A stretch of DNA of 46,930 nt from a bacterium. GTDB taxonomy: Bacteria; Patescibacteriota; Minisyncoccia; JAUYLV01. Made by a program: the position numbers and the translations under genes. Below are positions 7,378-10,576 of this stretch, piece by piece; the stretch's first letter is position 1; each line of letters opens with the position of its first letter. The notes below the pieces were generated by a model, which was not told the origin of the DNA, made no database searches, and saw nothing but the letters and a program-made list of their open reading frames with translations. The stretch is from the NCBI GenBank assembly GCA_030649025.1, contig JAUSGO010000034.1, forward strand, positions 1 to 46,930, written 5' to 3'.

Positions 7378-7944
7378 ATGTCCTTAAAACTTCATGTTAA
7401 GAACGATATTATTGTGTACGACGGAAAATATATACAAACTATTGAACGGCATTTCAGGAACCGCAAAACCGGATATCGTGGCACCTGGGAGATGGTGAAG
7501 CGTAAAACATACGGACGCATCGTTGCGGTTATTGCGCTTACGCCGAAAAAAGAAGTTATCCTGATAAAAATTTTCCGCATACCGTTTAAGTGCCGGATCA
7601 TTGAGGCATGCGCAGGCCTTATGGATAAAAAAGGAGAGAGCGAGCCGGACATGGCGCGGCGCGAACTTTTGGAAGAGACGGGGTATGAAGTTTCTCGCCT
7701 GCGAAAGCTTGTTTCTGGCCCCTTCAACACCAGCATGCTTGAAGACGAGATAGTATATTATCTCGGTACGGGAGCAAGAAAGATTCAAGAACCGGAACTT
7801 GAGGATGCCGAGGATATTGAAGTGCTCAAAATCCCGCTTAAAAAGCTTCGGACATTTCTTCTGCATCCGCCTCGCGGAGTAAAGGCGGATGTGAAGCTTT
7901 TTGGCATTCTGCACCTTCTAAAGAGCAAGGTGCCCATAAGGTAG
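7378..7944 (+). CDS. Nudix hydrolase, ADP-ribose pyrophosphatase-like
   Basis: This enzyme class cleaves nucleoside diphosphates linked to another group, for example ADP-ribose, using Mg2+. The Nudix box is 'AGLMDKKGES' followed by 'EPDMARRELLEETGYEV'; REx2EExGY is intact. There is one more residue between the leading Gly and the first Glu than in the standard Gx5E spacing. The upstream 'RIVAVIALTPKKEVILIKIFRIPF' and the downstream 'SMLEDEIVYYLG' resemble the ADP-ribose group. The length of 188 residues is normal. It begins 18 bases after the ABC exporter, probably in the same transcript, and a strong terminator follows. Substrate is inference. Confidence 0.87.
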   Translation: MSLKLHVKNDIIVYDGKYIQTIERHFRNRKTGYRGTWEMVKRKTYGRIVAVIALTPKKEVILIKIFRIPFKCRIIEACAGLMDKKGESEPDMARRELLEETGYEVSRLRKLVSGPFNTSMLEDEIVYYLGTGARKIQEPELEDAEDIEVLKIPLKKLRTFLLHPPRGVKADVKLFGILHLLKSKVPIR

Positions 7945-7959
7945 AAACTTCGCTCTTCT

Positions 7960-7999
7960 CTATTCCAATGTTCTCAAGAACATTGGAATAGTTTTTTTT
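7960..7999 (+). terminator. Strong Rho-independent terminator
   Basis: Perfect 14-bp stem CTATTCCAATGTTC / GAACATTGGAATAG with loop TCAA, followed by eight T. It ends the ABC exporter-Nudix transcript. Confidence 0.9.
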
Positions 8000-8033: not shown

Positions 8034-8061
8034 TTGTAATTATACGATAGCGCGCTATAGT
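8034..8061 (+). promoter_or_regulatory. Promoter with palindromic operator-like site between -35 and -10
   Basis: TTGTAA (8034-8039), 16 bases, TATAGT (8056-8061). The spacer contains the perfect palindrome ATAGCGCGCTAT (8047-8058), which overlaps the -10 box. Transcription would begin near 8068 and give a leader of about 40 bases with AAGGAGG (8099-8105). A repressor site in a promoter spacer suggests that the three genes downstream are inducible; the repressor is not identified. Confidence 0.55.
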
Positions 8062-8111
8062 TGGTTTTTGGTGATCTATTTTAGCACTTTGACAGAAGAA
8101 GGAGGGCGATG

Positions 8112-9122
8112 ATGATCGCTCAAGTAAATTACGCAGTTTGCGATACCGTCGTTGTCCTTATCACATCTCTCGGCGGATTTCCGGGGGCCAAGGAAGATCC
8201 GGTCAAAATGAGCGTGCCCGCATCCATTCTCGGCACGCTTAACCTTGTTGCGGTTGCCATCAATCACCAGACGACACCTCTTGTAGGAAGGGCGCTTGTC
8301 GGTACGATTGACGGCGCGATATGCAAAGGATGGGATTATCTGTGGCGGCGACTCGTGCGTCTTGCCGAAGAAGATTCAACCTTATTCCTGCCGCCGAATT
8401 TTGCCAACATGACTCCGGAGAAACTTGCGGGGCTTCTCGCCGATGGCAATAGCGGGGGAGTTATCACCGATGTTTCTCGGCGCGCCGCGTTTATCGTAGA
8501 TATCGGGCAAGTTATGCTGGAACGTGGATGGGAGTCTGCTGAAGACCTCTGCCGTGAAGTGGATGGCTGGCTTATTCGGAATGACGACAAGAATGGTCTC
8601 TACGGACTTTTGAAAAAGTTTGTCGCGTACGCGAGCGACCCGCTGGAGAAAAAATCGAACTATTTTCTCGCTCTTCAGCAGGCAAGTTGCAACTGGGAGT
8701 ATTGCGATCCTGAACATCTTGAGGCGCCGGTGAACTACCACGAACAGCGGCTGCATCTGCGCAAGGGCACGGTGGAAATTCTTGATGAAGCACTCGCCGG
8801 GAGGATTCGTCGCAGAGAGCCCGTTACCAAAGAAGAAGACCTTGCTATTCGCGGAGCCGTGAAAGAAGCCATCAGGTATATTGCCGAGGGCTTGGGGGTC
8901 TCTCCCGCGGATACGCACTATGCGTTTTGGAATTATTCCCGCAACTGCTGTTCACGCGACAAGACGCACTGTGAGTCGTGCGGTCCTACCTGCGGTCTTC
9001 CGGAACGGTATAAGGTGCAGGGAGTAACGCAATGTATCTTCGCGCCCATATGTATGTCGCGCGGCAAGCCGGTTTCGGAAATGTTGCTCGAACCAAGCCT
9101 TGATGACACCGATTGGTATTAA
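8112..9122 (+). CDS. Cys-rich protein, possibly HhH-GPD/queuosine-salvage-like N-glycosylase
   Basis: I do not recognise the family with certainty. The start at 8112 (MIAQ) sits six bases after AAGGAGG; 8109 is also possible. The protein is about 336 residues, mostly helical. A central 'APVNYHEQRLHLRKGTVEI' is laid out like the helix after the catalytic Asp in HhH-GPD DNA glycosylases (VDTHxxRxxxRLG), but with Asn-Tyr in place of Asp-Thr. After an 'AIRGAVKEAI' helix comes a cysteine cluster, C-x6-C-x2-C-x3-C around residues 278-291 (NCCSRDKTHCESCGPTC), and CIFAPIC near 308-314; the first part has the EndoIII-type iron-sulfur loop spacing. The order also recalls queuosine-salvage (DUF2419) proteins. 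It is co-oriented with a deaminase fusion and an Ada-type zinc protein. Confidence 0.5.
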   Translation: MIAQVNYAVCDTVVVLITSLGGFPGAKEDPVKMSVPASILGTLNLVAVAINHQTTPLVGRALVGTIDGAICKGWDYLWRRLVRLAEEDSTLFLPPNFANMTPEKLAGLLADGNSGGVITDVSRRAAFIVDIGQVMLERGWESAEDLCREVDGWLIRNDDKNGLYGLLKKFVAYASDPLEKKSNYFLALQQASCNWEYCDPEHLEAPVNYHEQRLHLRKGTVEILDEALAGRIRRREPVTKEEDLAIRGAVKEAIRYIAEGLGVSPADTHYAFWNYSRNCCSRDKTHCESCGPTCGLPERYKVQGVTQCIFAPICMSRGKPVSEMLLEPSLDDTDWY

Positions 9123-9127
9123 AATAT

Positions 9128-9160
9128 TCCGCTGATGCGCGCATGCAGAGGCGGATTTTT
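9128..9160 (+). terminator. Possible terminator after the Cys-rich gene
   Basis: Stem TCCGC / GCGGA (9128-9132, 9151-9155) enclosing an 18-base loop that itself contains GCGCGCATGC, followed by five T. The stem is short and read-through into the deaminase gene is likely. Confidence 0.45.
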
Positions 9161-9261
9161 CTTTGTTGCAAAGTTTGAGAGCGAAGTATACGCTGGAAAT
9201 ACTGTCTTTTACTTTGAAAACAAGAGTGAAATACTCCGGTCACCCAGGGGCTTTTCACGGG

Positions 9262-9288
9262 GCTAGATTCTCCAGTGGAGAATCTAGC
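9262..9288 (+). other. Perfect 12-bp hairpin in the leader of the deaminase gene
   Basis: GCTAGATTCTCC (9262-9273), AGT, GGAGAATCTAGC (9277-9288). No T tract follows. It ends ten bases before the Shine-Dalgarno AAGGAG (9299-9304), so it may be an RNA stability or control element, or a DNA operator. Confidence 0.6.
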
Positions 9289-9312
9289 GGACAACTTCAA
9301 GGAGAAAATGCC

Positions 9313-10314
9313 ATGAGCTGGGAACCTATAACCCCGGAACAATTTAAAGAACTCCTGCCCTCGATTTGTAGCGAGGAGACATCGCAGGATGCAAAAGGAT
9401 GGACGCCGGATAATCCGTTGTGGGGCCATTGCGCGGTTGTATCTTTGGTTGCGCAGAATCTTTTTGGCGGAAAAATTTGGAGAGCCGAATATACCGATCG
9501 CCAAAGCAAGACGAACTCGCACTACTGGAATGAATGCGCAGATGGCGCAGTTGAGGATTTTACGGTAGCGCAATTCGGTTACGCATTTCCCGAAATGCGC
9601 AATCCGGTGGTTCGGGACCGCGTCAGTATGCTGTATCACAAAGAAGGTGATTCGGAAGAACGCAAGAGGATTATCAAAAAAGCGCGAGAGCGCTATAAAC
9701 TTCTCGCGTTCCGTCTCTTGCAAATGCTCTACGGCGCCAATAAAGCCGGTGTGCGAAATCCTTTGTTCTATGATCCTATATACTGCGCCTGCTTTGAAGA
9801 AGCTCTCGATTCGCCATGCCGGAAGATGAAGTTCGGTTGCGTCATAACGCATGAGGGAGCGGTGGTATACCGAGGATGCAACAAGACGATTGAACCCCTG
9901 CACTCTCTTTGCGACCCAGCCTGCATTCGGCTTTCCATTACATCCCGCACCGAACAGATGCTGGGAGCGTGTGGTCACGCGGAGGAATTTGCTTTATGGG
10001 AAGTCGCGCGGAAAGGCATTGCGCTTTATGAGTGCGATCTGTATATCGCCGGTTTTTACCCCAACGGCTTGCCATGGCTGAAAACGTCAGCTGAACATAC
10101 GTGTCTGCGATGTTCGACACAAATGTACCAGGCACAGGTAAGAAAAATCTATGTTCCGATGAATACACGCCTAGAAGAACAGTCGTGGGCGCGATCATCC
10201 AGTGAGTGGCGGAGTATTACTCCCCAGCAAGCGGTTTCTGGCGCTCTCTGCTACGCCATGAAAGAAAAATCCATAGATTCGCCGGAAAAGGATCCAAATG
10301 CACAAGGTTCTTAA
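9313..10314 (+). CDS. YunG-like domain fused to a cytidine/deoxycytidylate deaminase-like domain
   Basis: The start at ATG 9313 is set by AAGGAG eight bases upstream; an open frame to 9163 exists but has no better start. Residues 1-110 resemble YunG-type small proteins: WGHC at 37-40, HYWN with H70, and an Asp-Phe-Thr near 82, which could be a papain-like Cys-His-Asp triad. Residues about 150-310 form a zinc deaminase domain: 'KMKFGCVIT', HAE at 222-224 (zinc ligand and proton-shuttle Glu) and C-x2-C at 264 and 267. These are the catalytic residues of cytidine/dCMP deaminases. Substrate could be a free nucleotide, a modified base or nucleic acid. The gene overlaps the next one by 17 bases. 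Confidence 0.75.
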   Translation: MSWEPITPEQFKELLPSICSEETSQDAKGWTPDNPLWGHCAVVSLVAQNLFGGKIWRAEYTDRQSKTNSHYWNECADGAVEDFTVAQFGYAFPEMRNPVVRDRVSMLYHKEGDSEERKRIIKKARERYKLLAFRLLQMLYGANKAGVRNPLFYDPIYCACFEEALDSPCRKMKFGCVITHEGAVVYRGCNKTIEPLHSLCDPACIRLSITSRTEQMLGACGHAEEFALWEVARKGIALYECDLYIAGFYPNGLPWLKTSAEHTCLRCSTQMYQAQVRKIYVPMNTRLEEQSWARSSSEWRSITPQQAVSGALCYAMKEKSIDSPEKDPNAQGS

Positions 10315-10522
10315 GGGCGGGAAGATAGTTGAAAGCCGAATCCCGGGCAGATATGCCGGGAATAAACCTCGAAAAATATTCGGCAGACTGGATTGTTTGT
10401 CCGGCAAGCGAATGATGAAACCAAAAAACCGGGTTTTTTTCCTGACCTGGCAAGATGCGGTGGAAGCCGGCTACCGGCCGTGCAAGAACTGCAGACCAAT
10501 GCCGAGCGATACCTACGCATAG
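10298..10522 (+). CDS. Stand-alone Ada-type zinc-binding domain protein
   Basis: A 74-residue protein. 'FGRLDCLSGKR', 'KNRVFFLTWQDAVEAGYRPCKNCRP' in parts match the metal-binding domain at the N terminus of the Ada methylphosphotriester repair protein (FxxxxC...NRvxF.s..eAxxaGyRPCkxC). One of the four Ada zinc ligands is not obvious: only C33, C62 and C65 are seen. No methyltransferase or AraC domain is attached. AAAAGGAT lies six bases upstream of the ATG, and the ATG is inside the end of the deaminase gene, so the two are translationally coupled. Role in sensing or repairing alkylated DNA is possible but inferred. Confidence 0.7.
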   Translation: MHKVLKGGKIVESRIPGRYAGNKPRKIFGRLDCLSGKRMMKPKNRVFFLTWQDAVEAGYRPCKNCRPMPSDTYA

Positions 10523-10523
10523 C

Positions 10524-10557
10524 GCCGCGGAATACATGTTCCCGCGGCTTTTCTTTT
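10524..10557 (+). terminator. Terminator of the three-gene locus
   Basis: Stem GCCGCGG / CCGCGGC (10524-10530, 10542-10548) followed by TTTTCTTTTT, immediately after the stop codon of the Ada-like gene. Confidence 0.85.
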
Positions 10558-10576
10558 TCTCATAAATAGGGTAGGC

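Follow-up and report, generated by a model that had tools for sequence, protein, structure and literature searches.

We analysed a stretch of DNA of 46,930 nucleotides (nt), hereafter the window, which is contig 34 (JAUSGO010000034.1, GenBank assembly GCA_030649025.1) of a 1.23 Mb genome from the Patescibacteriota, class Minisyncoccia, with a focus on a locus of three genes on the forward strand. Gene 1 (8109..9122, 337 amino acids) encodes a homologue of the DUF2419/Qng1 nucleotide N-glycosidases, which are related to the HhH-GPD proteins, and is of a putative iron-sulfur (Fe-S) type. Gene 2 (9313..10314, 333 amino acids) encodes a YunG domain fused to a domain similar to deoxycytidylate (dCMP)/cytidine deaminases, and gene 3 (10298..10522, 74 amino acids) a stand-alone Ada-type zinc finger. 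A first-pass annotation made from the sequence alone had described three genes in one direction, the last two overlapping, between strong terminators, and this layout holds. All three reading frames are open and have plausible ribosome-binding sites, including AGGAGG just 5' of gene 1, for which the start codon is the ATG at either 8109 or 8112, and AAGGAG upstream of gene 2, and 17 nt are shared by genes 2 and 3. The intrinsic terminators are located upstream of gene 1 at 7960..7999 (hairpin 7960-7991, -18.9 kcal/mol, z -6.9, eight T after the stem) and after gene 3 at 10524..10559 (hairpin 10524-10548, -15.2 kcal/mol, z -3.4, T-rich tail), both on the forward strand.

For the gene 1 protein, no significant match was obtained in Pfam or NCBIfam, and the cut-off of the Q_salvage family (PF10343) was not reached. 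Its AlphaFold2 model (predicted local distance difference test, pLDDT, 85; predicted template-modelling score, pTM, 0.87) proved to be related to glycosylase folds, as had been anticipated. In a Foldseek search with this model, ranks 1 to 11 were all occupied by DUF2419/Qng1 proteins, with best template-modelling (TM) scores of 0.71-0.75 and E-values from 5e-10. The weaker matches included endonuclease III (EndoIII), AGOG and Mag2, the first two of which ranked after DUF2419; the TM scores on the query for the DNA glycosylases were about 0.39-0.44, as compared to 0.71 for Qng1. A profile built from 12 gene 1 sequences matched the solved DUF2419 structures (7u07/7uk3) with an E-value of about 4e-6.

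Homologs of gene 1 in the class form two clades, P1a (10 sequences), to which the window protein belongs, and P1b (8 sequences), of which the former includes one sequence from a Terriglobia metagenome-assembled genome (MAG) and the latter one from a Woesearchaeota MAG. Most of the relatives were found in Parcubacteria-type MAGs (Sungbacteria, Spechtbacteria, Lloydbacteria), which points to the class Paceibacteria for the genome of the window. Both clades have full branch support (100/99) and are set apart, as a pair, from the canonical Qng1-type proteins of the class, in a tree with long branches in which the deep order is tentative. Members of P1b match PF10343 (best E-value 2.1e-8), with one sequence above the cut-off. 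Canonical Qng1 genes are present in Paceibacteria apart from the gene 1 clade, in genomes G374 and G335 (loci L099 and L100; E-value of 9e-80 to PF10343 for L099), and genome G072 contains both a canonical Qng1 and a gene 1-type protein.

Two residues of the Qng1 active site could be placed in the gene 1 protein, with a numbering that rests on a 32-residue spacing in the profile-structure alignment. Lys180 (codon 8649..8651) corresponds to Lys199 of Qng1, which is invariant across P1a and P1b, and Asn208 (codon 8733..8735) to the catalytic Asp231, and thus represents a natural D-to-N change. Asn is found at this position in 8 of the 10 P1a sequences and Asp in the other two, as well as in all P1b and canonical members. 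According to its title, PDB entry 7ulc contains the D231N variant of Qng1 crystallised with queuosine-5'-monophosphate, and entry 7u5a is a Lys199 mutant. Because Asn replaces Asp231 while Lys199 is kept, the gene 1 protein may be a natural counterpart of D231N Qng1, either as a nucleotide binder or as an enzyme of altered chemistry. The suggestion that gene 1 encodes an N-glycosylase is therefore sustained for the fold, which is of the DUF2419/HhH-GPD class, but not for an active glycosylase in this protein, since the catalytic Asp is substituted. In genome G071 (L031:930-3986), two tandem gene 1 paralogs are followed by YunG; the catalytic residue is Asn in one paralog and Asp in the other, and a division of labour between them is possible.

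The EndoIII-like Cys cluster noted in the first-pass annotation is present at 8946..9053 (C279, C280-x6-C287-x2-C290-x3-C294 ... C308-x5-C314) and is conserved in the relatives. It resembles the [4Fe-4S] motif of EndoIII, split by an insertion, and as judged from this pattern the protein may bind iron. Before the C-terminal tail, the P1a proteins have C-x6-C-x2-C, an insertion and C-x5-C, the P1b proteins have C-x7-C-x2-C-x5-C, and the canonical Qng1 proteins have no such pattern.

The N-terminal domain of the gene 2 protein (9334..9723) matches YunG (PF24585) with an E-value of 5e-21 and 75.4 bits, as compared to a cut-off of 27. Thr23, Asn34, Cys40, Gly52-53, His70, Asp82 and Gln87-Phe88 are invariant in 16 YunG sequences, among which Cys40, His70 and Asp82 form a candidate catalytic triad. 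The order of a Cys at a helix start, followed by His and Asp, would resemble that of papain/transglutaminase-type enzymes. Sequence searches with YunG yielded no solved relative in the PDB and no related Pfam family beyond PF24585 itself, and neither a function nor a structure for YunG is on record in the open-licence literature and the structure and family libraries searched. The deaminase domain (9754..10167) scores 40.4 bits to PF00383 (E-value 3e-10, cut-off 25), and its HAE (H222-A-E224) and CxxC (C264-x2-C267) motifs are intact, as annotated. In the AlphaFold2 model of gene 2 (pLDDT 83), this half of the protein is most similar to cytidine/dCMP deaminases according to Foldseek (best TM scores on the target of about 0.63-0.67), and a profile search gave weak matches (E-values 0.005-0.01) to dCMP deaminases, with which a C-I-R motif is shared. 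YunG is fused to a deaminase in 8 of the 18 Patescibacteria cases, with fusions in G001, G040, G063, G119, G212, G273 and G334.

We compared the distribution of the two genes across 384 genomes of the class. The gene 1 family (13, counting matches better than an E-value of 1e-30) and YunG (18) are found together in five genomes versus 0.6 expected (Fisher p 1.3e-4, not corrected for phylogeny), and seven of the nine taxonomic families with gene 1 homologs also carry YunG, 110 families being assumed. A gene 1 relative and YunG are adjacent in three families, represented by the window, by G071 (P1a-P1a-YunG, 24-nt gap) and by G334 (YunG/deaminase-P1b, 15-nt gap). Genes 1 and 2 belong together, and their co-occurrence and adjacency in other genomes bear out this part of the three-gene module proposed in the first-pass annotation; gene 3 does not share in it, its family being common without the others.

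The two families also have neighbors in common. One kind of HAD phosphatase adjoins gene 1 relatives in G072 and G159 and YunG in G292 and G353, with the order P1a-HAD-cytidine deaminase in G072, a gap of 3 nt between P1b and HAD in G159 and overlapping YunG and HAD genes in the other two. YunG adjoins a separate deaminase gene at a distance of 15 nt in G051, in G134 is flanked by a deoxynucleoside kinase gene on one side and a dCTP deaminase gene on the other, and has NUDIX genes beside it in G292 and G223. P1a genes were identified inside a TMK-ThyX operon (L030:5348-10503) and a TMK-ThyA-DHFR operon (L035:3401-8187), where TMK and DHFR were named from sequence. In both operons, P1a is followed by a DUF6899 protein and by a small Rossmann-like protein that resembles nucleoside deoxyribosyltransferases. 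Two Patescibacteria genomes from outside the class connect YunG with UDG, through a fusion of the two domains in G633 (PF24585, 3e-28; PF03167, 8e-12) and through an overlap of YunG with a UDG-family gene in G585 (1e-13). This fusion and this overlap, at L143:943-1893 and L144:1459-2462 on the reverse strand, provide an independent link between YunG and base glycosylases.

Other observations concern the genomic sites. Loci L049, L081 and L083 (in G159, G334 and G273) are versions of a single chromosomal site, bordered each time by a shared conserved open reading frame and a divergent cytidine deaminase, which contains either P1b-HAD, P1b-YunG/deaminase or YunG/deaminase alone, and is thus an exchange hot spot in one family. 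In a sister genus, the position of the YunG-deaminase gene upstream of infB is conserved. In the sister genus G001, the gene 1 relative is located on a different contig. A YunG homolog on the Streptomyces violaceusniger plasmid pSTRVI01 (L138) adjoins an adenosine deaminase gene (add).

Gene 3 matches Ada_Zn_binding (PF02805) with an E-value of 8e-11 over profile positions 18-64 of 65, including GYRPCKNC. The position of the methyl-acceptor Cys is occupied by Gly (IFGRLDC), as in the relatives at L108-L111, which places the protein in an IFGRL(D/S)C subfamily. The family was identified in 53 of 112 related genomes, in 34 of these above the curated cut-off, and the same type (IFGRL(D/S)C ... 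GYRPCKNC) recurs in genomes without gene 1. The Ada-type zinc gene was therefore rejected as a part of the module, the family being so common. Ada-type alkylation sensing is not supported either, given that the methyl-acceptor Cys is absent and the family is widespread in the class independently of genes 1 and 2. Gene 3 is probably an independent small zinc protein that is incidental to the conserved module.

As for the transcription signals, the annotated promoter upstream of gene 1 (8034..8061, forward strand) does show a 9/12 match to a sigma-70-like promoter, but the candidate is weak; six such sites were found in the region, as compared to 4.2 +/- 2.1 in shuffled sequence. It contains the palindrome ATAGCGCGCTAT at 8047-8058, for which a role as operator had been considered. 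The window contains 15 perfect 12-bp palindromes versus about 11.5 expected from base pairing alone, so that ATAGCGCGCTAT is unremarkable and was rejected as an operator. Downstream of gene 1, a GC hairpin with the T-rich tail ATTTTTCTTT (9129..9164) is a possible intrinsic terminator, with a z of only -1.5. The gap between genes 1 and 2 is 190 nt and contains a second hairpin, in the gene 2 leader (9262..9288), with a perfect 12-bp stem and a 3-nt loop; it is a single copy within the window and has no T tract. A NUDIX hydrolase gene (7378..7944, forward strand; PF00293, 4e-9), located directly 5' of the terminator upstream of gene 1, is a separate transcription unit and a possible functional neighbor of the locus.

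We propose, with a probability of about 0.5, that genes 1 and 2 constitute a modular locus for nucleotide-monophosphate processing, by salvage or sanitation, in Patescibacteria. This estimate applies to processing at the nucleotide level, and each single step is rated lower. The theme is suggested by the substrate of Qng1, which is a nucleotide 5'-monophosphate, the dCMP/cytidine-type deaminase, the HAD enzymes, which are often nucleotidases, and the operons for (deoxy)pyrimidine nucleotides. The deaminase would deaminate a nucleotide monophosphate that is either modified or similar to (deoxy)cytidylate, and the gene 1 protein would recognise and bind the nucleotide. Relatives with Asp may cut the base from the sugar phosphate, whereas for the window protein with Asn it is more probable that the nucleotide is bound or passed on, or that cleavage is slow and relies on a different residue. 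YunG would most likely be a hydrolase or transferase that depends on its Cys, with the same nucleotide or its product as target, and the HAD phosphatases and NUDIX enzymes would dephosphorylate in those loci that carry them. A more specific version, in which YunG works on nucleotide monophosphates, its partners in base handling are interchangeable (a cytidylate-type deaminase, a Qng1-like Fe-S protein, a HAD phosphatase or a UDG-family protein) and the Qng1-like partner has become a non-hydrolysing carrier or sensor through the Asp-to-Asn change, is put forward tentatively. At the most general level, the base chemistry expected from the first-pass annotation is well supported, because the N-glycosidase fold of gene 1 is combined with co-occurrence and adjacency of genes 1 and 2 elsewhere.

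Several observations weigh against nucleotide-monophosphate processing. The window protein has Asn in place of the catalytic Asp, and the fusions in G063 and G040 (L003:1447-2436 and L004:1453-2418) have HAP for HAE and have thereby lost the catalytic Glu, so that deamination is not always required; the HAP-type gene of G063 is followed after 11 nt by a cytidine deaminase gene that is itself intact. Most gene 1 relatives occur without YunG, and vice versa. A nucleotide-type immediate neighbor was found for 8 of the 18 YunG genes versus 3.0 expected (p 1.5e-4, position shuffling within loci), which is evidence in favour, but from a test for which the neighbor families were picked after inspection. 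On plasmids from other phyla, YunG often adjoins unrelated genes, such as acetyltransferases, and the link to nucleotide enzymes may therefore be lineage-specific. Finally, given the hairpin at 9129-9164 and the 190-nt gap with its second hairpin, genes 1 and 2 are not necessarily part of one transcript and may be on separate transcripts here. The same terminator-like hairpin and gap would fit a chance arrangement of three unrelated housekeeping genes, as would the broad distribution of the gene 3 family (53/112 genomes) and the separate contig of the gene 1 relative in G001. For gene 3, coincidence is indeed the preferred explanation. For genes 1 and 2, it is unlikely in view of the adjacency in two other families and the significant co-occurrence.

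The kinship of gene 1 to Qng1, in fold and distantly in sequence, raises the question of whether it is simply the Qng1 of the host, freeing queuine, a vitamin-like base, from queuosine-5'-monophosphate for TGT, with gene 2 being unrelated. The sister clade P1b, which matches Q_salvage and keeps the Asp, is consistent with this, and among the 14 genomes that carry the module, 13 have TGT and none has QueA. However, QueA was identified in only 7 of 112 relatives; as most genomes of the class lack it (105/112), its absence is uninformative and this pattern does not discriminate. Queuine salvage is improbable considering the Asn at the position of Asp231, the replacement of the aromatic stretch FCFWG of Qng1 by HQTTP in the gene 1 clade and the separate canonical Qng1 genes in the class, with both kinds in G072; it also leaves no place for YunG, the deaminase or the adjacency to thymidylate synthase. 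We assign a similarly low likelihood to DNA repair, in which gene 1 would be an HhH-GPD/Fe-S DNA glycosylase or a catalytically dead lesion binder and gene 3 an alkylation sensor. The EndoIII-like Cys pattern, the weaker fold matches to EndoIII, AGOG and Mag2 and the YunG-UDG fusion in G633 agree with such a role, but the fold similarity to DNA glycosylases is far below that to Qng1, gene 3 is without the methyl-acceptor Cys, and the neighboring genes encode enzymes of the nucleotide pool and not repair proteins. Least probable is a defence against phages in which nucleotides are depleted or bases removed, even if deaminases and nucleotide hydrolases serve in known defence systems and the distribution is patchy (about 3-5% of genomes). 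Genes 1 and 2 have no match in PADLOC, where gene 3 has just a partial one (17.6 bits, E-value 7e-4), no relatives were found in viral contigs, and searches of plasmids and phages returned only partial YunG or deaminase matches. A viral or mobile origin was rejected on account of these searches, and with the conserved position next to infB in a sister genus and neighbors in housekeeping operons, the proposed defence module is not upheld.

Nucleotide-monophosphate processing, our preferred interpretation, would represent a so far undescribed route for nucleotides, as suggested by the joint recurrence of these parts in unrelated genomes. Patescibacteria are small bacteria that rely on other cells and are thought to be heavily dependent on imported nucleotides, and for this reason a salvage or clean-up route would be directly testable with purified proteins. 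No part of the locus is a new fold. As far as could be seen, the recurring neighborhood, the fusions of YunG to a deaminase or to UDG and the Fe-S-type branch of Qng1, in which the D-to-N change is natural, are apparently new, and a literature search restricted to open-licence papers retrieved no description of any of these. For YunG, the repeated fusion or tight linkage with deaminases, Qng1-like or UDG-like N-glycosidases, phosphatases and NUDIX enzymes provides a first concrete lead. The Qng1 branch is similar to Qng1 as well as to the DNA glycosylases of the HhH-GPD type, and carries naturally the change that was used to trap the substrate in crystals of Qng1.

Among known systems, Qng1 (DUF2419/Q_salvage, PF10343) is the closest to gene 1, with which it shares the fold (TM score about 0.71-0.75), the conserved Lys199, the position of the DY/NY motif in the catalytic loop and a similar TTxY-like C-terminal tail. 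Gene 1 differs from Qng1 by Asn for Asp231 (in the window and 8 of 10 clade members), HQTTP for FCFWG, the added Cys cluster before the tail, the lack of a Pfam match and the context of (deoxy)nucleotide enzymes. With EndoIII and AGOG, gene 1 has in common a distant fold match, a V-[D/N]-x-H...R...RLG-like segment and, as a candidate feature, the C-x6-C-x2-C ... C-x5-C pattern, but its catalytic Asp is Asn, its Cys motif is split by about 17 residues and the TM score on the query is 0.39. The N-terminal domain of gene 2 corresponds to Bacillus subtilis YunG (PF24585, 5e-21), with the Cys-His-Asp invariant in 16 sequences, and is unlike it in being fused to a deaminase, and in other Patescibacteria to UDG. 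Its C-terminal half shares the fold, HAE and CxxC with the dCMP/cytidine deaminases (PF00383) and C-I-R with dCMP deaminase, and is distinguished from them by a long insertion before HAE, the YunG fusion and the absence of the Glu in two homologs. Gene 3, finally, covers most of the profile of the Ada N-terminal zinc domain (PF02805), GYRPCKNC included, and departs from Ada in being a stand-alone protein of 74 amino acids that belongs to the conserved IFGRL(D/S)C subfamily, where Gly replaces the methyl-acceptor Cys.

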